The position numbers were made by a program, and so were the translations under genes. Below are positions 2,123 through 34,338 of a stretch of 40,094 nucleotides of DNA, piece by piece; within the stretch, counting starts at the first letter, position 1; every line of letters begins with the position of its first letter. The notes beneath the pieces are model-generated. The model made no database searches and was not told where the DNA came from. It saw only the letters and a list, made by a program, of their open reading frames with translations. The stretch comes from Brooklawnia sp. (GTDB taxonomy: Bacteria; Actinomycetota; Actinomycetes; Propionibacteriales; Propionibacteriaceae), in assembly GCA_012517115.1 (NCBI GenBank), contig JAAYVP010000204.1, positions 1 through 40,094 of the forward strand. Direction: 5' to 3'.

Positions 2123-3253
2123 CTAGGCGCTGGCCATCAGGGCCAGCAGTACGCCGCCGGCCATGGCCGAGGCGACCTGTCCGGCCGCGTTTGCGCCCAT
2201 GGCATGCATGAGGACGAAGTTACCGTTGTCTTCTCGGGACACTTCCTTCTGTACGACGCGGGCAGCCATCGGGAAGGCCGAGATGCCTGCCGCACCGATC
2301 AGCGGGTTGAACTTGCCGCCACTGAACAGGTTCATCAACTTGCCGAAGAGCACGCCAGCGGCGGTGTCGAGGACGAACGCGCCGAGTCCAAGCACCAAGA
2401 TGAACAACGTCTGGGCCTTGATGAAGTTCTCGCCGACCATCGTCGAACCGATCGCCAGTCCAAGGAAGAGGGTGACGACGTTGTTCAGTTCGTTCTGGGC
2501 AGCACCAGTGAGTCGCTCGACGACCTTCGACTCGCGCAGCAGGTTACCCAGCATCAGGGTTCCGATCAGTGGTAGTGCGAACGGCACCAGAATGCCGACG
2601 ATGATCGTGACCAGGATTGGGAAGATGATGCGGGTACGTTGGCTGATCTCGCGCGAGGAGTACGGCATCCGGATGGAGCGTTCCTTCTTCGTGGTCAGCA
2701 GCCGCATGATCGGCGGCATGATGATCGGCACCAACGACATGTAGCTGTAGGCGGCCACCGTGATCGGTCCCAGCAGGTGGGGCGCCAGTTGCGCGGAAAC
2801 GTAGATGGACGTCGGGCCGTCGATGGCACCGATAATGCCGATGGACGCGGCCTCGGGCCGGGTGAAGCCGAGCACCAGTGCCAAGATCAGCGTCAGGAAG
2901 ATGCCGAACTGGCCAGCAGCACCCAACAGCACCATCTTCGGGTTCTCGAGCAGCGGACCGAAGTCGGTCATCGCGCCGATGCCGATGAAGATCAGCAGTG
3001 GGAACAGTTCGTTGCCTACCCCTATGTCGTAGAACAACTGCAACATGCCGGGTTCCTCGGACGTCCCGACCAGCATCGAAATCGGTAGGTTGGCCAGGAT
3101 GCAGCCCGACCCGATTGGCAGCAGCAGCAGCGGCTCGTATTCCTTGGCGATCGCCAGGTAGATCAGCAGGATACCTACCGCAATCATCACGCCGCCCTGC
3201 CATGACAGGCCGTAGAACCCGCTCAGCAGACTCTCGATTGTGGATGCATCCAT
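2123..3253 (-). CDS. mmdB: Na+-translocating decarboxylase, beta subunit (OadB/MmdB/GcdB family)
   Basis: This 376-residue, highly hydrophobic protein is the membrane ion channel and carboxybiotin-decarboxylase subunit of Na+-pumping decarboxylases. It accepts the carboxylated biotin carrier, decarboxylates it and couples that step to Na+ export. It contains the family hallmark GAIDGPTSIYVS, whose Asp145 corresponds to the essential membrane Asp of Klebsiella OadB. It also has the conserved C-terminal segments GAAGISAFPMAARVVQ and GANAAGQVASA. Its length is typical of the Gcd/Mmd type rather than the longer oxaloacetate forms. It is the last gene of a four-gene operon, and its ATG follows the biotin-carrier stop after a single base, indicating tight translational coupling. 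The symbol follows the most likely substrate, methylmalonyl-CoA, which is inferred from the carboxyltransferase. Confidence 0.92.
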   Translation of the reverse strand: MDASTIESLLSGFYGLSWQGGVMIAVGILLIYLAIAKEYEPLLLLPIGSGCILANLPISMLVGTSEEPGMLQLFYDIGVGNELFPLLIFIGIGAMTDFGPLLENPKMVLLGAAGQFGIFLTLILALVLGFTRPEAASIGIIGAIDGPTSIYVSAQLAPHLLGPITVAAYSYMSLVPIIMPPIMRLLTTKKERSIRMPYSSREISQRTRIIFPILVTIIVGILVPFALPLIGTLMLGNLLRESKVVERLTGAAQNELNNVVTLFLGLAIGSTMVGENFIKAQTLFILVLGLGAFVLDTAAGVLFGKLMNLFSGGKFNPLIGAAGISAFPMAARVVQKEVSREDNGNFVLMHAMGANAAGQVASAMAGGVLLALMASA

Positions 3254-3254
3254 G

Positions 3255-3779
3255 TCAATCCTTCACGAACCGCAGCAGCACCTGACCGTACTTGACCTGC
3301 TCGCCGCTCTTGACGTCGATCGACTCCACAGTGCCGGTGCGGTCAGCATGCAGGTCGTTCTTCATCTTCATGGCCTCCAGCACCATGACGACATCGCCCT
3401 TGTTGACCTGGTCGCCCGGGGCGACGTTGATCTCTAGGATGACGCCCGGCATCGGCGCGCTCATCGAGTAGGCGAGGTCTTGCCCCCCGGCGACTGCCGG
3501 GGACGGCGTGCGTGGCGTCTCGGACCGCATGGCTGCCGGCACCTTGGGCGCACGTGTCACCGGTTGAGCCGCGGCTATTGAGGGGTCAGCGACCGCTCTG
3601 CTGGGCGCCGTCTCGATCTGCGGTGTGATTATCGCATCGGCGGCGTCGGCCTGTGAGGTGAGGGTGACGTCGACAGCTTGCCCGTCGATCTGGACCTGAA
3701 ACTCGGTGGCCGAGATCTCCTCGATGTCGATCTCGTATTCGTTGTTGTTGACGGTGAGTTGGTAGCGACGCACGGTCAT
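3255..3779 (-). CDS. mmdC: Biotin carrier protein of the Na+-pumping decarboxylase
   Basis: The 174-residue protein ends in a biotinyl/lipoyl domain (about residues 105-172) with the biotinylation motif EAMKM, Lys138 being the modified residue. An Ala/Pro/Thr-rich linker (about 52-100) connects it to an N-terminal domain beginning MTVRRYQLTVNN. This linker is typical of swinging-arm carriers that shuttle CO2 between carboxyltransferase and beta subunit. I chose the ATG at 3777-3779 because it overlaps the gamma-subunit stop as ATGA and because the longer frame upstream merely shadows that gene. Translation is thus coupled at both ends. The closest well-known relatives are the 1.3S subunit of propionibacterial transcarboxylase and MmdC. 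Membership in a pump rather than a soluble transcarboxylase follows from the neighbouring beta and gamma genes. Confidence 0.92.
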   Translation of the reverse strand: MTVRRYQLTVNNNEYEIDIEEISATEFQVQIDGQAVDVTLTSQADAADAIITPQIETAPSRAVADPSIAAAQPVTRAPKVPAAMRSETPRTPSPAVAGGQDLAYSMSAPMPGVILEINVAPGDQVNKGDVVMVLEAMKMKNDLHADRTGTVESIDVKSGEQVKYGQVLLRFVKD

Positions 3780-4186
3780 CTCCTCTGGGTGTTGTGCATC
3801 TGGGAACTGCGCCCCATCGCGACCCAGCGGCTCGCCCAAAGGCGCGATCCGGGGGCGTGGACGCGGTGAGCGGGGGCAGCCTGCTTGCGACGGACGTCCG
3901 CGTGCAAAGCAACGGCGACCGAGACAGCTGCGATCTGCTCGGGAGTGAGACCACTGGCATCGGCGATGGTCATCCAGGCGTTCGGGTCGGCTTCGACTTC
4001 GGCGGCCTCGACAGCATCCCCTGCGGTCAGTGTCGCCTCGCCGGGGGCTGCCTCGACGGCGGTAGCCGTCGGCGCCTTGCTGGTCCTGCCGAGCAGCATC
4101 AATACGATCATGAGGGCGATGAGCATAAGGAAGACAGCTCCCATGCCCAGTAGCATCATCTGCAGGCCCCATCCAAGGTCAGCCAT
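3776..4186 (-). CDS. mmdD: Na+-pumping decarboxylase gamma/delta-type small subunit (OadG family)
   Basis: The 136-residue protein starts with one membrane helix (GWGLQMMLLGMGAVFLMLIA and onward, about residues 5-33). A charged, Ala/Glu-rich cytoplasmic tail follows, with a segment (PEQIAAVSVAVALHADVRRK) seen in many OadG-family proteins. The subunit anchors and assembles the complex and in oxaloacetate decarboxylase binds Zn2+ through a C-terminal His/Asp region. Here the tail contains two His residues near AHRVHAPGSR. The position between the carboxyltransferase and the biotin carrier, the 6-base gap to the former and the ATGA overlap with the latter make the assignment firm despite low conservation of this family. 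Confidence 0.85.
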   Translation of the reverse strand: MADLGWGLQMMLLGMGAVFLMLIALMIVLMLLGRTSKAPTATAVEAAPGEATLTAGDAVEAAEVEADPNAWMTIADASGLTPEQIAAVSVAVALHADVRRKQAAPAHRVHAPGSRLWASRWVAMGRSSQMHNTQRR

Positions 4187-4192
4187 GGGTCA

Positions 4193-5767
4193 TCACACCG
4201 GGAAGAGCCCGTGCTTCTTGGGCACGGAGGTAGCGATCTTGGTCTGCAGCACCTCAAGCGCACGCACCAAGCGTGGCCGGGTCTCGCGGGGTTCGATGAC
4301 CTCATCGATCTGACCCAAGTCAGCGGCGCGGTACGGGTTGAAGAACTTCTCCCGGTACTCGGCCACGAAGTCGGCCTCGGCCTTGGCGGGATCTTCAGCG
4401 GTCTTGATGGCCCGGCCATGAAGCAGACGAGCGGCACCGTCGGGGCCCATCACCGCGATCTGTGCGCTCGGCCACGCGTAGGCGACGTCGGAACCCATCT
4501 GCTTGGAACTGAGCGCCACGTAGGAACCGCCGATCGCTTTACGGGTGACCACCGAGATCTTCGGGACGGTCGCCTGGCAGTAGGCGTAGATGATCTTCGC
4601 GCCGTGCCGGATGACCCCGTTGTACTCCTGTTCGACGCCGGGCAGGTAACCGGGGCAATCGACGAACGTGATCACTGGGATCGAGTAGACGTCGCAGATG
4701 CGGATGAAGCGGCTGATCTTGTCTGAGGAGTCGATGTCGAGGACGCCCGACATCACCAGTGGCTGGTTCGCGACGATGCCGACGGGACGCCCGTCTAGGC
4801 GGGCAAAGGCGACGATGGCGTTGGGCGCGAATGCCTCGTGAACCTCGAGGATTGAGTCGGTGTCGAAGATCTCGTCCAATACCTTGCGCATGTCGTAGGC
4901 CTGCCGATCGTCCTGGGGGACGATGGTGTTCAACGACTCGGCCATCCGGTCGGGCGAATCATCGCTGACCAGGATCGGGGCATCTTCCGAGGTGTTCGAT
5001 GGCAGGTAGCTGAGCAGCAGCTTGGTCAATTCCAGCGCCTGGATCTCCGATCTTGCCTCGAACTGTGCGACGCCGCTGCGTCCGGCATGGACGGCGGCAC
5101 CTCCCAACTCTTCGGCGGTCACTTGCTCGCCGGTCACGGATGCGACAATCTCGGGGCCGGTCAGGAACATGTTCGAAGTCTGATCGACCATGACGGTGAA
5201 GTCGGTCAAGGCGGGGGAGTAGACCGCGCCACCGGCACAAGGGCCCATGATCAAGCTGATCTGGGGAATCACGCCGGAGGCCGCCACGTTGCGCTGGAAG
5301 ACCTCGCCGTAGGCGGCGAGGCTGCGCACGCCCTCCTGGACACGGGCACCGCCGGAGTCATTGAGACCGACAATCGGGATGCCGCTTTCGAGTGCCAGGT
5401 CTTGGATCTTGTTGATCTTCTGAGCTTGCACTTGGCTGAACGAGCCACCCAAAACGGTGAAGTCTTGCGCGTATACAGCCACGCGTCGGCCGTTGATCCT
5501 CCCGAAACCGGTGATCACACCGTCGCCCGGGAACCGTTTATCAGCCATGCCGAAGTCGGTCACGTTATGGGTAGCCAAGGCTCCGAGCTCTTGGAACGAA
5601 CCTTCGTCCATCAGGATCGAGAGTCGTTCCCGGGCCGTCATCTTGCCCTTGGCATGTTGAGCTTCAATGCGTGCGGCTCCGCCTCCTTGGACCGCCTTTT
5701 CACGCATGTGGCGCAGCGTCGTCAAGTGGTCTGCTGACGACTGCTCTGGCGTCACGGTGTCATTCAT
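4193..5767 (-). CDS. mmdA: Methylmalonyl-CoA decarboxylase alpha / acyl-CoA carboxyltransferase subunit
   Basis: This 524-residue carboxyltransferase has the two crotonase-like halves of the PCC-beta/12S/MmdA family. The N half contains GKMTARERL, QDFTVLGGS, the oxyanion-hole segment NDSGGARVQEG and GPCAGGAVYSPALTDF. The C half contains PGYLPGVEQEYNGVIRHGAK, IGGSYVALSSKQ and AWPSAQIAVMGP. It ends in KKHGLFPV, much like propionibacterial 12S (KKHGNFPC). It should transfer CO2 from (S)-methylmalonyl-CoA to biotin. I chose the ATG at 5765-5767, preceded by GAGGTG four bases away, over the longer open frame. No biotin carboxylase gene is adjacent, which fits decarboxylation rather than ATP-driven carboxylation. 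Other acyl-CoA substrates (malonyl- or glutaconyl-CoA) cannot be excluded. Confidence 0.9.
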   Translation of the reverse strand: MNDTVTPEQSSADHLTTLRHMREKAVQGGGAARIEAQHAKGKMTARERLSILMDEGSFQELGALATHNVTDFGMADKRFPGDGVITGFGRINGRRVAVYAQDFTVLGGSFSQVQAQKINKIQDLALESGIPIVGLNDSGGARVQEGVRSLAAYGEVFQRNVAASGVIPQISLIMGPCAGGAVYSPALTDFTVMVDQTSNMFLTGPEIVASVTGEQVTAEELGGAAVHAGRSGVAQFEARSEIQALELTKLLLSYLPSNTSEDAPILVSDDSPDRMAESLNTIVPQDDRQAYDMRKVLDEIFDTDSILEVHEAFAPNAIVAFARLDGRPVGIVANQPLVMSGVLDIDSSDKISRFIRICDVYSIPVITFVDCPGYLPGVEQEYNGVIRHGAKIIYAYCQATVPKISVVTRKAIGGSYVALSSKQMGSDVAYAWPSAQIAVMGPDGAARLLHGRAIKTAEDPAKAEADFVAEYREKFFNPYRAADLGQIDEVIEPRETRPRLVRALEVLQTKIATSVPKKHGLFPV

Positions 5768-5884
5768 TGTCACCTCGCTGTAGCAGTGATTTCGCACCAC
5801 GGAAGGGCGCTCCGCTCAAGTTACCACGTGGGCACCGCGCCCAGACCGCGTGATTGCCAAGCGCGGCGGCCGATTGCAACAGGC

Positions 5885-26313: not shown

Positions 26314-27990
26314 ATGACCTCAGCAGATCTCTTGACCGGAACCGGTGTCGTTCCCGGCATCGCCTATGCGCCCGCGGGATGGGCACGTAAGCCGCCCCAG
26401 GTCCCCGTCGACACCCGCATCATTCGTGAGGAGGATCGACCAGCCGAGACTGAGCGTTTCCGTGCGGCCGCAGATACTGTGGCGGCACGATTCGCCGCCC
26501 GGGCCTCCGCCGCCACGGGGGCGGCCAGCGAAGTCTTAGCCGCCACCGCCACGCTCGCGGCGGATCGCGGTTGGATTCGCACGGCCACCCGCCAGATTGC
26601 TGCGGGGAAGCCCGCCACCACCGCTACTGCGGAGGCCATTGCCAAGTTCGTCGCGCAGTTCGAGAAGCTCGGTGGCTTGATGGCCGAACGCACTACCGAC
26701 TTGAACGACATCCGCGACCGCGTCATCGCTGAGATCCTCGGGCTACCTGAGCCGGGCGTCCCGCAGCCCGACCAGCCGATCATCCTGCTGGCCTTAGACC
26801 TTGCGCCATCCGACACCGCGGGGCTCGACCCGAGCAAGATCCTCGGGCTGGTGACCCAATTCGGCGGGCCCACCAGCCATACGGCGATCATCGCCCGACA
26901 GTTGGGTATCCCCTGCGTCGTCGCGACTCCAGACCTGGGCCTGGTTGAGGACGGAACTGCCGTTTTGGTTGACGGCACCACCGGGACCATCCGCTGGGGC
27001 GTCCCCGAGGCTGAGGCTCGCGAGCTGGTGGCCGCCGATGCGAACAGGCGCGCGGCAGTCCGCGCCTGGACAGGCCCTGGCCGGCTGGCGTCCGGAGAAC
27101 CCGTGCAACTCTTGGCCAATGTTCAAGACGGCGCCGGTGCGCGCACGGCGGCCGAGTCCCCCGCCGAGGGAATTGGGCTGTTCCGCACCGAACTGTGCTT
27201 CCTGACTGCCCAGACCGAACCCAGCGTGTCGGAGCAGGCCGCGATCTACCGTGAGGTGCTTGACGCCTTCCCGGGCAAGAAAGTGGTCGTCCGAACGCTG
27301 GACGCCGGCTCTGACAAGCCTGTACCCTTCGCTGACCACTCACACGAAGAGAACCCGGCGCTCGGTGTGCGTGGGGTGCGTCTGTCGTTCGCCCGGGAGG
27401 GGCTGCTGGAGCATCAGTTGGACGGCATCGCCGAGGCGGCCGTCGACCAACAGGGCGAGAAGTCTTCGGTCTGGGTCATGGCGCCGATGATTTCGACCAT
27501 CGACGAGGCTCGTCGGTTCGCAGCCGAGGTGCGCAAGCGAGGATTGCTCGCCGGAGTCATGGTCGAGGTGCCCTCGGTCGCGCTGTTGGCCGAGGCATTC
27601 CTCAATGAAGTCGACTTCCTGTCGATCGGCACCAATGACCTCACCCAATATGCGATGGCCGCTGACCGCATGGCGCCCGACCTGGCATACCTCACCGACC
27701 CGTGGCAGCCCGCGGTGCTACGACTGATTACCTCGACCGCCGCGGCTGGGGTGAAGTTGAGCAAGCCGGTGGGCGTTTGCGGTGAGGCGGCCGCTGACCC
27801 GGTCCTCGCCTGCGTCCTGGTCGGACTCGGTGTGACCTCACTCTCGATGGCGTCTGCGGCGATCCCCGCAGTTGGGGTCGCTTTGGCCAACGCGACGCTC
27901 GAGCAGTGCCGCCGGGCCGCCGAAGCCGCCCTGCAGGCGACCACAGCGGCCGATGCCAAGGCGGCCGCCTTGGAGGTCTTGGACAACTGA
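26314..27990 (+). CDS. ptsI: Phosphoenolpyruvate-protein phosphotransferase (enzyme I)
   Basis: A 558-residue enzyme I that takes phosphate from PEP and passes it to HPr. The phosphorylated His189 lies in FGGPTSHTAIIARQLGIPC. The PEP-binding barrel has VVRTLDAGSDKP, ENPALGVRGVRL, IGTNDLTQYAMAADR and the C-terminal Cys in KPVGVCGEAAADP. HPr-binding helices are at about 35-140. The ATG 26314 follows AAGGGTGGG about six bases upstream. It is transcribed alone, divergent from fruR, and followed by a large hairpin. A single ptsI-ptsH pair here may serve every PTS permease of the cell. Confidence 0.95.
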   Translation: MTSADLLTGTGVVPGIAYAPAGWARKPPQVPVDTRIIREEDRPAETERFRAAADTVAARFAARASAATGAASEVLAATATLAADRGWIRTATRQIAAGKPATTATAEAIAKFVAQFEKLGGLMAERTTDLNDIRDRVIAEILGLPEPGVPQPDQPIILLALDLAPSDTAGLDPSKILGLVTQFGGPTSHTAIIARQLGIPCVVATPDLGLVEDGTAVLVDGTTGTIRWGVPEAEARELVAADANRRAAVRAWTGPGRLASGEPVQLLANVQDGAGARTAAESPAEGIGLFRTELCFLTAQTEPSVSEQAAIYREVLDAFPGKKVVVRTLDAGSDKPVPFADHSHEENPALGVRGVRLSFAREGLLEHQLDGIAEAAVDQQGEKSSVWVMAPMISTIDEARRFAAEVRKRGLLAGVMVEVPSVALLAEAFLNEVDFLSIGTNDLTQYAMAADRMAPDLAYLTDPWQPAVLRLITSTAAAGVKLSKPVGVCGEAAADPVLACVLVGLGVTSLSMASAAIPAVGVALANATLEQCRRAAEAALQATTAADAKAAALEVLDN

Positions 27991-28050
27991 TCACGGCGGG
28001 CGGGATTTTGCCTGCACGCGCCGCGGGATGCTCAGTTCGCTGGAACAGGC

Positions 28051-28099
28051 ATCGCCTCCTGACGAAGCGGCCGGTTGGCCAGCCCCGTCAGGAGGCGAT
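28051..28099. terminator. Bidirectional terminator hairpin between ptsI and the GH81 gene
   Basis: ATCGCCTCCTGACG (28051-28064) and CGTCAGGAGGCGAT (28086-28099) form a perfect 14-base stem. The 21-base loop contains a small GGCC-GGTT-GGCC hairpin of its own. It lies 60 bases after the ptsI stop and 12 bases before the end of the convergent GH81 gene, so it can serve both strands. There is no T-run on either side. Confidence 0.65.
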
Positions 28100-28110
28100 T
28101 GCGAGTGCGA

Positions 28111-30141
28111 TCAGGGCTTCAGGCTGTGCAGCCAAGCCAGCAGGTAGCTGCGGGTGTTGCCGTCGTCGATCAGGTCTGCCGGCAACTTGCGGGCCTCCTC
28201 AAGTGCGGCCAACCGTTCCGGTTCACCCTGTAAGGCGGAGTACATCAGCAGGTAGTCGCCGTACTGTTGGGCGAATCCGCGGTTGGCGGTGGCCTCTGCG
28301 ACGTTGGCGCCGATCCGCTCGGGGTCACCCGCCAGGTGCCCGGACGAGGGACTGGCCGGGATGACCAAGATCGCCATCGCCGCGGCCGGCTCTGCCGAGA
28401 ACCAGGTTGCGTAGTCACGCTTGCCACCGAAGACGAGCGGGCTGATCTGGTGCTGGTAGCCGTCGTAGACCGGATCGGTCTTGTCGAAATCGGTCCAATA
28501 TGCCCGGGCAGCCTGCGCCTCAAGGGCGTGCATCCAGGTGGCCTGCGTCTCAAGCTCCGAATTGCCGGAAACCTGGGCCCAAAGCGTCAGCCCGGCGTAC
28601 GCGTGCACCGCCTCCGATGAGGATTCCTGATTGTTGCCGTCGGCGAATGGGGCGGTGCCGGACGCCCACGAGTGCGATTGGTAGACGTCGAAGTTGCGGC
28701 GTACCGGGAAGTCCTGCGTGGCAACCGAGGTGGCGATGTCGGCGGCCAGCAGGTTCATCACCGGCGCGATGCGTGCCACCAGTTCGGGATCGTCCTGGCC
28801 GAGCACACCGGCCGCGTAGAGGAAGTACCCGTAGTGGAAGTGGTGGTCGTTGAACTCGTCGGACCCGAACGACGGGGTCTGGCCGACGATACCGCGGTTC
28901 GTGCTGTCGTAGAAGAAACAGAATGCGGATTCACTTGTGCAGCCAGCCGGGTCCGTCCAGCGCAGCAAGGTCTCAGTCACCCGCGTCCGCAACTCGTCGG
29001 CGGCCGTCCGATCACCCAGCTGGGACGCGATGGCGTAGAGCTGCGCGTCCCGGTATAGCGCCTTGCCGCCGAAGTAGGTATCGGCAGGGTAGGCCTCGGC
29101 GTCGGCGACATCGGCTGTCAAGGCGGCCGCCAGCTCTGCCCGCTCATCACCGTTCAGATCGGCTAGATCGAGGCTGGCTCTCGCCTGCTGAATCGGGGAC
29201 GACCAGGTCAGCTCATTGCCGGCGTAGAGCCGCATCGCGCCGAAGATCGTTTCGTAACTGCCCAACGCCGACGACTCCTTGGGCAGGCCGTCCTGCTGGT
29301 GAGGGAGTACCCCGTAGGCGGTTTGTCCGCCGTCGGCAGTCTGGTAGTTCAAGGTGGTCGAGACCTCGTCGGCGCCGACCTCGTAGGAGACCGAGGTTGA
29401 CTGCACGGGATCGGCCAACGCGGCGAGGGCTTTGGCGTCCCCGTCGCTCGGCACCACGAACCATGTCACCCGGCCACCCGGCTCGACTTCGACTGAGGTC
29501 TCGGAGATGGTGGCCTTCTCGGCGACCGCGCCGTACGTGTGGGTTCCGTCGGTCGCCGTCCACAACTCGTCGGTCTGGCTGAAGACGATGTTCGTCCCGA
29601 CAGTGATGGCCTCGTCCGTAGTGAAGGTGACGAACGGCGAGCCCTCCGCGATCCGGACCTGGCCGCTGGCGCCTTGAGCGGACAGCGTGACCGATGCCTC
29701 GTCGTAGGCGCTCACCTGCCACGAATCCACTCCAGGAACCGAGACCTTCACCGATGGCCGGTAGCCGCCCATGATGGTCTTCCCAGTAGTCGTGACATCG
29801 GGGACGCCGAAACCGAGCCCCTCAGAGTCCGCACCGAACGACAAGGGCAGCGGGAAGACAGGTTGGGTCTGCTCGCCGAAGACCAGTCCCGAGAACCACT
29901 TGTTGGTGGGCGGAAGTAGACCCGGAGCCAGCCGTTCGGGTTTCAGGTCTTTGCCGGGCTTGCTGCCCAGTTCCTCGATGGAGGCTCGCAACTCGTTGGC
30001 GTCCAAGACGGGTGTCCCGCTGGACGACTGGTTGGTCGTGGACTCAGTGGGGGCGTCACTATCGTCGGACGCGGCAGTGCAGCTTGCGAGCAGCACGGTG
30101 GCAGCAAGCAGAGCGGCGAATCTGGTGTGGAACTTACCCAT
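28111..30141 (-). CDS. GH81 endo-beta-1,3-glucanase lipoprotein
   Basis: The 676-residue protein has a lipoprotein signal peptide with lipobox LLASC (Cys21), followed by an Asp/Ser/Thr-rich linker (22-45), so it is predicted to be anchored outside the membrane. The catalytic region matches glycoside hydrolase family 81: NDHHFHYGYF (431-440) contains the Asp acid, SHSWASG lies at 489-495, and NNQESSSEA (503-511) carries the Glu general base. PTNKWFSGLVFG near 78-89 is the typical GH81 N-terminal block. GH81 enzymes cut beta-1,3-glucans. Its ATG overlaps the HlyD-like gene's TAA by one base (TAATG), coupling it to the synthase operon. That placement suggests trimming, release or proof-reading of a polymer made by the neighbouring synthase rather than scavenging. 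Confidence 0.88.
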   Translation of the reverse strand: MGKFHTRFAALLAATVLLASCTAASDDSDAPTESTTNQSSSGTPVLDANELRASIEELGSKPGKDLKPERLAPGLLPPTNKWFSGLVFGEQTQPVFPLPLSFGADSEGLGFGVPDVTTTGKTIMGGYRPSVKVSVPGVDSWQVSAYDEASVTLSAQGASGQVRIAEGSPFVTFTTDEAITVGTNIVFSQTDELWTATDGTHTYGAVAEKATISETSVEVEPGGRVTWFVVPSDGDAKALAALADPVQSTSVSYEVGADEVSTTLNYQTADGGQTAYGVLPHQQDGLPKESSALGSYETIFGAMRLYAGNELTWSSPIQQARASLDLADLNGDERAELAAALTADVADAEAYPADTYFGGKALYRDAQLYAIASQLGDRTAADELRTRVTETLLRWTDPAGCTSESAFCFFYDSTNRGIVGQTPSFGSDEFNDHHFHYGYFLYAAGVLGQDDPELVARIAPVMNLLAADIATSVATQDFPVRRNFDVYQSHSWASGTAPFADGNNQESSSEAVHAYAGLTLWAQVSGNSELETQATWMHALEAQAARAYWTDFDKTDPVYDGYQHQISPLVFGGKRDYATWFSAEPAAAMAILVIPASPSSGHLAGDPERIGANVAEATANRGFAQQYGDYLLMYSALQGEPERLAALEEARKLPADLIDDGNTRSYLLAWLHSLKP

Positions 30142-30878
30142 TAGCGCAGTCCAATCTTGGTCAGGAAAGTGAGTACGGCATCAGTCGGGCCCGCGAGGAA
30201 GCCGTCGTCACGAAGCGACATGCTGACCGACACCGGGGTACCGCGCTGCCCGAGGGTGCCGAGCTCGGCTGCGTTCAGCTCATCGCTGACGACGCGCACT
30301 TCGGACACGGTCTCGCCGTTGGACGAGGTGATCTGCACCCCAGCCACTTCACCGCTCAGCCGGTCGTTGTTCGGCATCAGAATCTCGGCGCGGGCACCGA
30401 GCTCCACCCGCCCGTAGTCCAGCGGCGACAGGGTGTAGCTGGCAAGCACTGAGCGTTCCTGATCGGAGACGATGGCGGCCAGGGATTCTCCGTCGTTCAC
30501 GAAGGAACCCAACACTCCTTTCACGTTGGTGACGTAGCCGTCGGCCACTGCCTTGTAGGTGACCAACCCCCGGGCGGGGTCCAGGTCGAAGGCAACGTTC
30601 GATGCCGGCTGGGCGCCCTGGGCGAAGGCTTGCTGGAGGGACGCCGAGGTGACCACGAACATCGGTTCGCCGACGGTGACCTCGTCGCCTTCGGCGACGA
30701 AAACCTGGGTCACGACGCCACCGTAGCTGGAGGCGACGTTCGAGACCGGGGCGTCAACAATCGCGTGATCGCTGGGGACCTGTTGCTGGCGCTGGTTGAA
30801 CAGCAGGGTGAGTGCAGTCATGAGGATCAGGACCGCTGCGATCCCGCCCCAAAGCTTGATGTGGTTACGGAGGTTCAT
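30141..30878 (-). CDS. HlyD/membrane-fusion-type protein of the glucan cassette
   Basis: The 245-residue protein has one N-terminal membrane helix (about 9-28, LWGGIAAVLILMTALTLL) and an extracytoplasmic region resembling periplasmic adaptor proteins. A split biotinyl/lipoyl-like half motif lies at about 50-80 (SYGGVVTQVFVAEGDEVTVG) and returns at about 110-140 (ADGYVTNVKGVLGSFVNDGE), followed by a beta-barrel-like part. The coiled-coil hairpin between the half motifs is very short, which suits a monoderm with no outer membrane. It lies 29 bases after the glycosyltransferase gene. A GT2 synthase paired with an MFP-like protein recalls the bgsB-bgsA pair that makes mixed-linkage beta-glucan in Sinorhizobium. 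Export or scaffold function is inferred. Confidence 0.75.
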   Translation of the reverse strand: MNLRNHIKLWGGIAAVLILMTALTLLFNQRQQQVPSDHAIVDAPVSNVASSYGGVVTQVFVAEGDEVTVGEPMFVVTSASLQQAFAQGAQPASNVAFDLDPARGLVTYKAVADGYVTNVKGVLGSFVNDGESLAAIVSDQERSVLASYTLSPLDYGRVELGARAEILMPNNDRLSGEVAGVQITSSNGETVSEVRVVSDELNAAELGTLGQRGTPVSVSMSLRDDGFLAGPTDAVLTFLTKIGLR

Positions 30879-30907
30879 TTGAGACCAACTCGCTTTCTGG
30901 GTGCCGT

Positions 30908-32818
30908 TCAGGCGTTGACCGGTGTATGGGCGGCCGCCCGGGACGGCGTGTACGGCCTGGTCGGGGCAGATGCGTCAGAGGATTCGGTGGCCGGGACCGG
31001 CTCGGGGGAGGAGTGGGTTACCGAGCGCAGCAATTCGTCGCGTGCCTGGCGTGCGTCCAGGATCCCGGCACGGTCGAGCACCAGGTGCTGGGCAGGGGTC
31101 TGAGTCTTCTCGTCGGACGAGCCGCGCCGCGGCTTCGGGCCCGCGCCGAGACGCTCCCGGCGGGTTTCCCGGTCTTCGGCGAAGGCCGCCAGCACGAACC
31201 CGCCCACAATGCAGGCGTTGGTGAAGGCCCAGAAGGTGGCCAGGTTGACCGACTGCATGTTCCAGTCACGCCATAGCGAGACCACGGTGGTGCAGACCAG
31301 GAAGACAAACGTGTAGACCTGCGGACCGATGAAGTTGAACGCCGAGGCCTTGCCGCCGGTGGCCCCGGTGACCGACCACTTGGTGTCGATGCCGAGGAAG
31401 GCGTTGCGCAGCGCTTTGAAGTAGATCGGGAAGGAGTTCGCCGCCAGCAGCAGCACCTCCCAGCGGAAGGTGCCGGCGACCAAGGCGGCCAGCACGATCT
31501 GCAGGACGTAGAAGCCGGCGTAGAAGAGCACCCACTGCATGGGCCCCACGGTCAGGTTCACCGGCCGCAGGTCGAAGAAAACCTCCATCGCAGGCAACAG
31601 CAACAGCAACCCGGGTGCGATGCCGGTCAGGTAGTGCGTGGCGGTCACGAAGTACATCAACCGTTGGTCCATGGTGAGCTTGCGTTTGCGGCCCAGCGGG
31701 TTGTGGGTGAACAGGATCTCGAAGCCACCGGTCGCCCAACGCAGCTGTTGCTTGCTGTAGGCCTCGACGGTGTCTGGGGTGTCGCCAGTTGCCAGCTTCT
31801 TCGCCACGAAGACCGATCGCCAGCCGCGCTCATGGAGCATCAGCGAGGTCCAGACGTCTTCGGACTTCGAGCCGGTGAACATGCCGCCAATGTCAAGTAC
31901 GGCGTTGCGGCGGAAGAGCACGTTGGTGCCGACGCAGAACGCCGCGTTGAAGGCGTTGCGGCCCGGCTGGACGAAGCGGTAGAACATGGACTGCATGAAA
32001 CCGGCGCCGCGTGAGATGAAATTGTGCAGGTTGCCGTAGGTCTGCGGGGTCTGCACGAACGCGACATTCGAGTCGGCCATATAGGGCAGGGTCTCCTCGA
32101 TGAACTCCGGCTCGGCGACGAAGTCGGCGTCCAGAATGATGAAGAAGTCCTCTTTCGCGACGCTGAGCGCGTTGTTGATGTTGCCTGCCTTCGCGCCGGC
32201 GTTGCTGAGGCGTCGGATGTAGCCGCATTTCAGTTGGGCAGCCAGGTCACGAACGTCGTCGGAGTTGCCGTCATCGAGGATGTAGGTGGAGTGCAGACCG
32301 TGCATCGCCATCGCGGCAGTGACGGTGCGGCGGATGGTGTCGATCGGCTCACCGTAGACCGTGATGAAGGCGGCCACGCTCACCTGCTCGCCATTCAAGT
32401 ACAGCGGCCAACGGGTGGGATCGTCAGTCAGCCCCAGGTGTTCGTTGAGCTGGTGGTCGTAGAGCTTGCCCTGGGCCTCGAAGAAGGCGAACGGTGGCTG
32501 CTTGCCGTAGCCAACGAGGATCGTCCACATGCTCATCAGTGCGTGGAAGACCAGCACGATTTCGGCGAAGATCACAATCAGCCAGGGGATCAGGTCACCG
32601 CGGTTGGCCGGGTTGAGCAGGAACCCCCCGTAGGCGAGGACGCCCAGGGTGGCCAGGAGGGTGACGACCAGCACCAGCGGCGAGTATGGATTGCGGGTGG
32701 CCGTCCGCCGCTCGTCGGGGTCGAGTTCGTCCACGTGGCGAAGCTCGTTGGCCAAGTTGAGATCGGACAGGTCCGTCGGAGCGACGGCGGCGGAGTGCCG
32801 CCTCGTCAGAGAGATCAT
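30908..32818 (-). CDS. Processive family-2 glycosyltransferase (cellulose/curdlan-synthase-like), predicted beta-glucan synthase
   Basis: A 636-residue membrane GT2. Two helices (about 46-66 and 76-103) precede a cytosolic catalytic domain with LDDGNSDD (DDG 182-184), DAD 230-232, the acceptor-site SED 319-321 in place of TED, and QQLRW 357-361, the Q(Q/R)xRW motif of processive synthases. About five more helices form the pore (389-547). The last 90 residues are a charged, Pro/Thr-rich cytosolic tail with no PilZ-like motif. I chose the ATG at 32816-32818, with AAGGAG seven bases upstream, over a GTG six bases earlier. It likely uses UDP-glucose. The product linkage cannot be told from motifs, but the GH81 partner points to beta-1,3 bonds. 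Cellulose or hyaluronan-type products are the alternatives. Confidence 0.85.
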   Translation of the reverse strand: MISLTRRHSAAVAPTDLSDLNLANELRHVDELDPDERRTATRNPYSPLVLVVTLLATLGVLAYGGFLLNPANRGDLIPWLIVIFAEIVLVFHALMSMWTILVGYGKQPPFAFFEAQGKLYDHQLNEHLGLTDDPTRWPLYLNGEQVSVAAFITVYGEPIDTIRRTVTAAMAMHGLHSTYILDDGNSDDVRDLAAQLKCGYIRRLSNAGAKAGNINNALSVAKEDFFIILDADFVAEPEFIEETLPYMADSNVAFVQTPQTYGNLHNFISRGAGFMQSMFYRFVQPGRNAFNAAFCVGTNVLFRRNAVLDIGGMFTGSKSEDVWTSLMLHERGWRSVFVAKKLATGDTPDTVEAYSKQQLRWATGGFEILFTHNPLGRKRKLTMDQRLMYFVTATHYLTGIAPGLLLLLPAMEVFFDLRPVNLTVGPMQWVLFYAGFYVLQIVLAALVAGTFRWEVLLLAANSFPIYFKALRNAFLGIDTKWSVTGATGGKASAFNFIGPQVYTFVFLVCTTVVSLWRDWNMQSVNLATFWAFTNACIVGGFVLAAFAEDRETRRERLGAGPKPRRGSSDEKTQTPAQHLVLDRAGILDARQARDELLRSVTHSSPEPVPATESSDASAPTRPYTPSRAAAHTPVNA

Positions 32819-33118
32819 TGGCACGCTCCTTCACCAGTATCGGAGGGGTGGCCTGGAAGCCGACGTGGTGGGGATGGCATTCGCATGCTGGAAGTCATGG
32901 CTTTCGCACTCGCCCACTTGATGTGTCGGTCAATGTGTGTCTCTTGGGGTCTGGCTCGGGGCGAGCTCCTTTCCGCGAACTAATTGAAACAGAGACCGTT
33001 CAACTAGCAGCATCAAGCGGCAACTATTTGCCACGTTCGGTTGCCAGTGTTGCCACTTTCTCTCGGAGATGGCGACGCCCGTTCTGACCGGGCAGCGCGG
33101 CGTCCAGCCCCCGGCGAT
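32819..33118 (-). promoter_or_regulatory. 300-base non-coding leader of the glucan cassette with TTGCC/GGCAA repeats
   Basis: No convincing gene is present. Seen on the plus strand, GGCAA-CTAT-TTGCC (33019-33032) is an inverted repeat, followed by TTGCCAG at 33041-33047 and TTGCCAC at 33050-33056; TTGCCAC also occurs at 33028-33034. The cluster lies about 200 bases before the synthase ATG, near an AT-richer stretch (32980-33030) that could hold a promoter. It looks like a multi-site operator. No riboswitch fold was recognised in the long leader. Confidence 0.4.
33074..33104 (-). terminator. Possible terminator after ogt
   Basis: GACGCC (33074-33079) and GGCGTC (33099-33104) are complementary 6-base arms, with a further CCCG/CGGG pairing inside the loop. 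The element lies 15 bases past the ogt stop on the minus strand. There is no T-run, so the call is weak. Confidence 0.3.
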
Positions 33119-33760
33119 CTACGCACCGCCAGCTGGTGTGGCTCTCACGGCATGCTCCAGGGTCAAGAGCGTGGACTTGGCGTCGAGGCCGCCGACGTAG
33201 CCGCCCAGCGTGCCGTCGCTGCGAAGCACTCGATGGCAGGGGACCACGATGGGCAGGGGATTGGTGGCACAAGCGGTGCCCACCGCCCTGACCGCAGTGG
33301 GGTTGCCGACTGCTTCGGCGACCTGCTTGTAGCTACGGGTGAACCCGTAGTCGATCCTGGGGAGGTATTGCTGCACCTGGTGGCGGAACCCTGCCGAGAG
33401 CCGTTGGTCCAATTGGAGCTCGAATCGGTGGCGGTGGCCGGCGAAGTACTCCTCGAGCTGAGAAGCGACGTCGTCGAGGTGGCTGGGGGAGTGCAAGATG
33501 CGGGGGCTGACCCGTGCAGACAGCTTTTCCAGCACCGTGTCGAAGCCCTCGCGTTCGTAGGCGACTCGCAGCAGCCCGCGATCGGTCTTGGCGAGCAGCA
33601 GCTTGCCGATCGGTGAGTCGACGGTTCGGTAAACGATGTCGAGGGTGCCGCTGTCGGCAGCGGACGCAACTAGCCGGGCGTGGAGAAGTTCGAGGACTCC
33701 CGGTTCGATGGGGAACTGAATGTCAACGGCCGCAGGCCGAGGGCTGGTCTGGTTACTCAT
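33119..33760 (-). CDS. ogt: Methylated-DNA-[protein]-cysteine S-methyltransferase
   Basis: The 213-residue protein ends in the AGT DNA-repair domain with the acceptor Cys in PIVVPCHRVLRSDGTLGGY and the recognition helix region YKQVAEAVGNPTAVRAVGTACATNP. It removes alkyl groups from O6-guanine by suicide transfer to that Cys. The N-terminal half has the AGT pseudo-RNase H fold (TVDSPIGKLLLAKTDRGLLRVAYE), preceded by about 45 extra residues (IEPGVLELLHARLVASAADSG) common to actinobacterial Ogt proteins encoded beside a sigma factor. Its ATG overlaps the sigma-factor gene end by eight bases, so the two are translationally coupled. Confidence 0.93.
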   Translation of the reverse strand: MSNQTSPRPAAVDIQFPIEPGVLELLHARLVASAADSGTLDIVYRTVDSPIGKLLLAKTDRGLLRVAYEREGFDTVLEKLSARVSPRILHSPSHLDDVASQLEEYFAGHRHRFELQLDQRLSAGFRHQVQQYLPRIDYGFTRSYKQVAEAVGNPTAVRAVGTACATNPLPIVVPCHRVLRSDGTLGGYVGGLDAKSTLLTLEHAVRATPAGGA

Positions 33761-34259
33761 CTGGCTGCTCCCAACTCGTAGACCGCTTCATTCGGCGGCG
33801 TAGCGTCTTGATACCGTCTGCGGATGCCCGGCGCACCGCTTCTGGGGTGGAGCCGATGACGGCTGCGGTCTCGGTGTGCGGTAGGCCGCCCAGATAGTGG
33901 TAGGCGACCGCGAGGCGTTGCCGTTCGGGCAACTGGGCAACCAACTGCCAGACAGTCAGATCGGGCAGCCCCGCGTCGTCCAGGCCTGCTGACAGTTCCG
34001 GCAACCGATCAGTTGGGATCGCCCGCCTCCCCCGAGTGCGGATTATGTCAAAAGTCTTGTTCTTGGCGATGCGCACCAGCCACGCCTCGACGTTGGTGTC
34101 CTCCGGCATGGTGGGCCACGACCTCAGCGCGGAGAGGAAGGTCTCAGACCAGGCGTCCTCAGCGTCGGCGTTGGGCCCCAACGCTGCGCGGCAGACCCGC
34201 AGCACGGTGGCTCCGTACTGCTGCACACAATGCTCGAAGGGACCCAAGGTGTTCATCAT
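33753..34259 (-). CDS. ECF-type RNA polymerase sigma factor
   Basis: The 168-residue protein has sigma region 2 (FEHCVQQYGATVLRVCRAALG, then AEDAWSETFLSALRSWP and WLVRIAKNKTFDIIR; the first is given here only as a location near residues 7-27) and region 4 (PERQRLAVAYHYLGGLPHTETAAVIG near 110-135, with TPEAVRRASADGIKTLRRR). There is no region 3, as in ECF factors. ATG 34259 is the first in-frame ATG clear of the upstream HAD gene; no ribosome site is evident. No separate anti-sigma gene is adjacent. The stop overlaps the ogt start by eight bases, which suggests that it regulates, or is functionally tied to, alkylation repair. Confidence 0.85.
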   Translation of the reverse strand: MMNTLGPFEHCVQQYGATVLRVCRAALGPNADAEDAWSETFLSALRSWPTMPEDTNVEAWLVRIAKNKTFDIIRTRGRRAIPTDRLPELSAGLDDAGLPDLTVWQLVAQLPERQRLAVAYHYLGGLPHTETAAVIGSTPEAVRRASADGIKTLRRRMKRSTSWEQPDE

Positions 34260-34338
34260 CCAGAAGACGTCAGCGCCGGGAGGAATGTGAGGTGGTATCT
34301 CGATGCTCCAGACCCACGATCCCGGCCGGAAGAGTCGG

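Follow-up and report, generated by a model that had tools for sequence, protein, structure and literature searches.

Several bacterial operons pair a beta-glucan synthase of glycosyltransferase family 2 (GT2) with an accessory protein and a cognate hydrolase, and they provide the framework for the locus described here, a three-gene cassette in a 40,094-nucleotide stretch of Brooklawnia sp. DNA (contig JAAYVP010000204.1 of assembly GCA_012517115.1), referred to as a whole as the window. The cassette encodes a GT2 synthase, a HlyD-type protein and a lipoprotein of glycoside hydrolase family 81 (GH81). The bcs cellulose operon shares with it the GT2 fold and the logic of accessory and cognate hydrolase, but differs in its PilZ, BcsB, BcsZ and cyclic di-GMP (c-di-GMP). 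BcsZ belongs to GH8. The clostridial cellulose operon ccsZABHI, as presented in the cited sections of PMC7710045, resembles the cassette in being Gram-positive and in combining a GT2 with a membrane accessory and a membrane-anchored cognate glucanase, while differing in its GH5 in place of GH81, its PilZ domain, its CcsB, which is like a carbohydrate-binding module, and its O-acetylation genes. According to the same sections, the specificity of this GH5 enzyme, CcsZ, served the authors to infer the polymer.

The Agrobacterium operon crdASC also has three genes and a GT2 beta-glucan synthase, and its product is the one proposed here. It starts with crdA (1458 bp), the functions of crdA and crdC are given as unknown, and GH81 is not mentioned in the cited portions of PMC10819609. 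BgsBA of Sinorhizobium and Rhizobium likewise joins a GT2 synthase and a HlyD-type partner in one operon; in the cited excerpts it is activated by c-di-GMP (PMC9495663, PMC5567048), and BgsB is described as HlyD-like and a likely part of the export channel (PMC9495663). Against these similarities stand a different GT2 clade, a reversed gene order and a BgsBA stretch in which no hydrolase gene is shown. BgsB has 410 aa and the Bradyrhizobium HlyD partner 456 aa, whereas the window protein has 245 aa. Plasmid operons of Pacificitalea and Sulfitobacter, arranged GH8-HlyD-GT2 (L142 1608-5977 and L150 1682-5929), hold the same three kinds of gene and are apparently analogous, but with GH8 instead of GH81 and a GT2 of another clade. 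In actinobacteria, a curdlan-type glucan has been reported from Cellulomonas, with GT2 genes 35-39% identical to CrdS as candidates; the cited part of PMC3544764 calls it unclear how C. flavigena reuses its curdlan.

The Brooklawnia cassette is of the same GT2, accessory and hydrolase type of synthase-dependent beta-glucan operon, with GH81 as a new partner. No description of a GT2-GH81 pairing or of an actinobacterial curdlan operon was found in searches of open-licence PubMed Central papers, in agreement with the original prediction, made from the DNA letters alone, that this arrangement was undescribed. The cassette is read here as a largely c-di-GMP-independent operon that would make and trim a beta-1,3-linked, curdlan-like glucan, the linkage being deduced from the GH81. 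We give this reading a probability of about 0.6.

The cassette and its conservation

All three genes are intact open reading frames of the minus strand, where the GT2 comes first, followed by the HlyD-type gene and the GH81.

30908-32818, minus strand: putative processive GT2 beta-glucan synthase, 636 aa from ATG, with the D,D,D,QQLRW motifs and a gating-loop WSVTG, without PilZ
30141-30878, minus strand: HlyD or membrane fusion protein (MFP)-type single-span protein, 245 aa, with lipoyl and barrel domains and a model without alpha-hairpin
28111-30141, minus strand: GH81 lipoprotein, 676 aa, with lipobox Cys21 and D432, E506 and E510 retained
30079-30090, minus strand: lipobox LASC of the GH81, residues 18-21, from sequence
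32826-32830, minus strand: AGGAG, likely ribosome-binding site of the GT2 gene, from sequence

The GT2 has an alternative start, a GTG at 32824 that would give 638 aa; the ATG at 32818, behind the AGGAG, is the better start and the one originally proposed. A gap of 29 bp separates the GT2 stop from the HlyD-type gene, and the HlyD-type stop and GH81 start overlap at TAATG. The intact frames, the Pfam matches and the motifs bear out the predicted operon of a GT2, a single-span MFP-type protein and a GH81 lipoprotein with this overlap.

The GH81 had been predicted to be a dedicated partner of the synthase, and its conservation beside the GT2 in relatives had been set beforehand as the check on that claim. 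Of 147 genomes of the family, 38 have a GT2 orthologue (at least 56% identity), counting one (G078) in which the gene is split over two contigs, and the GH81 lies directly downstream on the same strand in all 38, one copy (G048) being cut by a contig end. In the class, 8 of 394 genomes have a GT2 orthologue and the GH81 adjoins it in every one. Two genomes (G000 and G018) turned up in both searches, so the pair is found in 44 distinct genomes, from five families. A candidate identity of family f37 as Cellulomonadaceae gains no support, GH94 being present in 0 of 4 f37 genomes. Identity is lower, about 29-39%, in the 39 remaining GT2-positive genomes of the class (E <= 1e-40), and 29-35% in the 43 remaining genomes with a GH81 (E <= 1e-20). 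A phylum sample of 396 genomes, some from the same class, gave an orthologue in the window's own genome only; at E <= 1e-60 it added three genomes from beyond the class, 34-39% identical. Peptide patterns led to four named relatives with 61-66% identity, all of them Propionibacteriaceae, including Propioniciclava soli. The window's own genome (2.88 Mb in 446 contigs, 91.8% complete) has a single GT2 match at E <= 0.001.

Thirty-nine loci were read in detail: the window and 38 of the other 43 genomes, with G064, G073, G078, G087 and G090 left out. The three genes keep the same order on one strand in all 39, which excludes a chance arrangement, and the presence of a HlyD-type partner gene in each upholds the likeness to Sinorhizobium BgsBA drawn originally. 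The GT2-MFP junction is a 4-nt overlap in 29 of 37 loci (the fused L113 and L133, whose start is not resolved, left out), and the MFP-GH81 junction in 22 of 39, with starts picked automatically. In L113 (5956-8556), one open reading frame of 866 aa holds both the GT2 and the HlyD_3 domains, a natural fusion that supports a physical pairing of the two proteins. Pairwise distances of the three cassette proteins correlate (r 0.76, 0.65 and 0.75; n=34, leaving out L113, L118, L133, L137 and L140), as shared descent alone would also produce. No conserved neighbours beyond the three genes were found with a crude gene caller and five genes on each side, the commonest cluster occurring in 6 of 39 loci. 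The three-gene cassette is strictly conserved in some actinobacteria.

The synthase, its partner and c-di-GMP

Pfam assigns the synthase to GT2 families and Cellulose_synt, and its motifs (638-aa numbering) are DDG 184, KAG 212, DAD 232, QTPQ 258, SED 321 and QQLRW 359. The natural L113 fusion was modelled with AlphaFold2 from a 67-row alignment, with a mean predicted local distance difference test (pLDDT) score of 82.7 and a predicted template modelling score (pTM) of 0.64. The GT2 domain of this fusion, rather than of the window protein, matches BcsA (9b8v_E) with Z 33.6, a root-mean-square deviation of 3.3 and 466 aligned residues. Plant CesA, hyaluronan and chitin synthases and CslF6 (Z 22.8) are also among the best matches listed for this domain. 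The fold leaves the linkage undecided because hyaluronan, chitin and mixed-linkage (CslF6) synthases match as well.

A GT2 tree (FastTree, 51 sequences, 471 columns) was rooted on PgaC, with CrdS and the chitin and hyaluronan synthases left out. Sixteen cassette GT2s group together outside the BcsA group, which comprises five BcsA-type sequences (support 0.999), one of them unannotated and one cyanobacterial beside BcsB. BgsA falls in an alphaproteobacterial HlyD-linked clade (support 0.998) that holds no cassette member, and the cassette GT2s adjoin other actinobacterial GT2s. In the PgaC rooting, support for the cassette clade is only 0.487, with a stem of 0.65. A firm clustering with cellulose, chitin or hyaluronan synthases had been named as what would speak against the original prediction; the cassette GT2s lie outside both BcsA and BgsA in this tree, which covers the cellulose part of that claim. 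Related actinobacterial GT2s in three other loci (L174, L175 and L176) stand beside a large gene that looks, by eye, acyltransferase-3-like.

The cited parts of PMC6821405 tie acceptor-region positions to linkage specificity, with Q, Q, F and K in CrdS, and give the CrdS channel-entry residues as Q237, Q259, F262, K270, H374, W422 and H442. At the positions of RsBcsA 276, 298, 302 and 309, all 38 cassette GT2s compared (L133 left out) carry Q, Q, Y and R. In the five BcsA-type proteins these positions are H; N or G; Y; and N, T or L, and in two BgsA sequences Q, Q, F and R. Three of the four acceptor-region positions in the cassette GT2s therefore lean away from BcsA.

The R that the cassette shares with BgsA, where CrdS has K, would also suit a mixed-linkage (1,3;1,4)-beta-glucan whose beta-1,3 runs are cut by the GH81. 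So would the pairing of a GT2 with a HlyD-type protein, as in S. meliloti bgsBA and in R. etli (PMC9495663, in the part cited). This product is nevertheless improbable. The cassette GT2 lies outside the BgsA/alphaproteobacterial clade, the known rhizobial mixed-linkage glucan alternates strictly according to the same part of PMC9495663 and thus offers no beta-1,3 run for GH81, and in both cases in which an alphaproteobacterial GT2-HlyD operon was seen with a hydrolase, the enzyme was a GH8. Of the two products originally proposed, beta-1,3 or mixed-linkage glucan, the first is the one to which the GH81 and a few channel residues point, and the second has gained no strong positive evidence.

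The HlyD-type protein is compact. It matches HlyD_3 in Pfam (33.2 bits, cut-off 22.2), and its length is 239-248 aa in all 39 loci, taking the fused part in L113. The model of the window protein (pLDDT 86.7) consists of one N-terminal helix, a lipoyl domain and a barrel; the long alpha-hairpin is absent from it, and one short helix, residues 79-86, lies between the lipoyl halves. Among its nearest structural matches are ZneB (Z 13.3 over 184 residues), MacA (13.0 over 185) and BesA (11.4 over 160), and biotin carrier domains match the lipoyl part alone (Z 10.6-12.3). A missing hairpin is what one would expect in a cell with one membrane, where no outer membrane has to be reached.

The domains bear on c-di-GMP control as well. 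Pfam found no PilZ domain in eight cassette GT2s (the window, L113 and six others), and the two PilZ-type motifs occur together in the GT2 tail in none of the 39 loci. GGDEF domains gave no match in 18 of the 24 cassette genomes searched, out of 44, the window's own among them, so c-di-GMP control cannot be general. Judged from these absent domains, such control appears unlikely in most hosts.

The hydrolase and the product

The GH81 protein is well defined by its domains, with Glyco_hydro81C at 191.6 bits and the GH81 N-domain at 32.4 bits, against a cut-off of 25.6 for both, and its best PDB sequence match is 6fop, itself a GH81 (E 3e-56). GH81 is a family of endo-beta-1,3-glucanases, and the names of the PDB matches agree. 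Given this family specificity, a linear beta-1,3-glucan, as a surface polysaccharide or exopolysaccharide, is the most likely product; the logic by which CcsZ reported its polymer, applied to the cassette, points to the same glucan. The D of NDHHFHYG and the E of NNQESSSE are acidic residues of the catalytic region. D354 and D432 are retained in all 39 cassette GH81s, and E506 and E510 in 38, the exception (L140) being cut by a contig end. D432, E506 and E510 are likewise present in 22 of 22 free-standing GH81s, taken from 22 of the 43 other GH81-positive class genomes, and in 7 of 7 second GH81s, which lie elsewhere in seven cassette genomes at 30-40% identity.

A first tree of 39 cassette and 22 free-standing sequences placed all 39 cassette GH81s in one clade (support 0.946) with a stem of 1.75. 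With the seven second copies added, the clade of 39 remained intact (support 0.943) and its stem shortened to 0.13, and the long stem was dropped as a sign of drift. Three of the second GH81s (L184-L186) are sisters of the cassette clade (support 0.715). These three are longer and have no clear lipobox, and are a possible source of the tethered form. Within the N-terminal 60 residues, 30 of 39 cassette GH81s show a lipobox pattern, compared with none of the 22 free-standing GH81s and two of the seven second copies; a cysteine aligns to Cys21 in 38 of 39 cassette sequences, all but L133. The true lipobox count may differ slightly because the starts of L118 and L137 are misplaced and L131 and L139 are partly out of frame. 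Free-standing GH81s have longer open frames, of 760-1356 aa. A plasmid search with the GH81 gave nine records, each below 40% identity. A predicted lipid anchor on an apparently intact GH81 is the rule in the cassettes.

These features also bear on a rival view in which the GH81 serves for scavenging or against fungi and has nothing more than a promoter in common with an unrelated synthase of a surface polysaccharide. Cassette-free GH81s are indeed common in the class (43 of 394 genomes), and seven cassette genomes have a second GH81 of their own. Yet in the 147 and 394 genomes, cassette-type GH81 apart from the GT2 amounts to two fragments: a 253-aa piece on a short contig of G100, which is 69% complete and lacks the GT2, and an extra 157-aa piece (53% identity) on a separate contig of G030. 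Together with the separate clade, the lipobox in 30 of 39 cassette but none of the free-standing GH81s, and the longer free frames, this makes an independent enzyme very unlikely.

Several observations weigh against a beta-1,3-glucan made independently of c-di-GMP. By sequence, the GT2 matches cellulose synthases best, and its PDB matches are BcsA. At RsBcsA 412, 465 and 480, the cassette GT2s have V in 34 of 38, variable residues, and A or S, respectively, resembling neither CrdS nor BcsA, and 477 falls in a gap. The Q, Q and K/R residues are not diagnostic, being present in 21, 17 and 21 of 22 other uncharacterised actinobacterial GT2s; they lean away from cellulose but, being so widespread, do not prove beta-1,3. 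In the gating-loop motif FxVTxK, four displayed cassette GT2s have W for F and no K. GGDEF domains are present in 6 of the 24 cassette genomes searched. Finally, the GH81 reads in two frames in three genomes, G034 (L131), G077 (L139) and G064, possibly through breakage or sequencing error:

G034:C11:575983-577946: two-frame GH81 gene
G077:C7:163177-165103: two-frame GH81 gene
G064:C22:7217-8531: two-frame GH81 gene

The BcsA matches in the PDB also speak for a GT2 that makes cellulose (beta-1,4) or another beta-glycan, with a GH81 whose substrate has changed by drift. Among families, NCBIfam CelA matches best, and the cassette Y at the Tyr302 position of RsBcsA is that of BcsA. The CelA score of 214.4 bits is, however, far under the cut-off of 699.1; no PilZ was found, the cassette has no BcsB gene, and H276 and N298 of RsBcsA are replaced by Q in 38 of 38 sequences. 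The GH81 acidic residues are retained, and the short stem (0.13) on which the cassette clade branches beside three non-lipobox GH81s gives no sign of fast drift. This reading is regarded as unlikely.

For the preferred beta-1,3-glucan, the cassette would act as a synthase-dependent secretion operon. The GT2 would polymerise UDP-glucose on the cytoplasmic side and thread the chain through its own membrane channel, the fold being supported by the model. The short HlyD-type protein, whose fold likewise comes from a model, would be the outer-face partner of the synthase, in the place of BcsB or BgsB. The GH81, predicted to be lipid-tethered to the outer face of the same membrane, would cut the emerging chain and thereby set its length, release it or clear stalled chains, as proposed for the hydrolases of cellulose operons. 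Confidence is fair for the complex, for the tethering and for the role in cutting. A fuller account is more tentative and somewhat short of even odds: an actinobacterial curdlan-type operon, free of c-di-GMP in most hosts, in which the beta-1,3 specificity of the GT2 arose separately from CrdS and a hairpin-less MFP accompanies a lipid-tethered GH81 chain cutter. The original interpretation as a whole is partly supported, and the arrangement itself is confirmed.

The genomic slot and the meaning of the cassette

Within the genus, seven other genomes yielded neither the GT2 nor the GH81. The nearest congener by ptsI (G106, 93% identical) has flanking DNA that is mostly 85-89% similar, and its similarity to the window is lost at the stop codon of ptsI (27990) and returns at 33136. 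Its corresponding slot, from ptsI to the O6-methylguanine methyltransferase gene (L169 5214-6603), holds a trypsin-like serine protease, identified by eye, and a small gene. The gap between ptsI and the methyltransferase is a variable slot, apparently a cargo site, which the cassette entered or left in one piece in this lineage. One further feature lies at the edge of the cassette.

28051-28099, no strand: 14-nt perfect inverted repeat with a 21-nt spacer, in the gap that separates the GH81 gene from the convergent ptsI, a possible shared terminator

The terminator scan did not call this repeat, and over 27950-33200 neither sigma-70 promoters nor terminators scored above shuffles. A tRNA-borne element was considered and rejected, the window having no tRNA. 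An extracytoplasmic function (ECF)-type sigma factor gene at 33753-34335 overlaps the methylguanine methyltransferase gene; it is missing at the matching place in the congener, where the alignment jumps from 7260 to 7282 of L169, a second difference near the slot. Far from the cassette, at 2123-5800, genes for a carboxyl transferase and for the beta subunit of a Na+-transporting decarboxylase (OAD_beta) probably form a membrane decarboxylase cluster.

The comparison with the known operons suggests that the hydrolase family, GH8 or GH5 elsewhere and GH81 here, can report the linkage of the product. The compact two-protein synthase, fused naturally in one species, offers a target for structural work. 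If the reading is true, this curdlan-type operon would supply candidate beta-1,3-glucan genes in Actinobacteria, and the synthase-MFP-GH81 unit would be a concrete, testable gene set for beta-1,3-glucan in another group of these bacteria.

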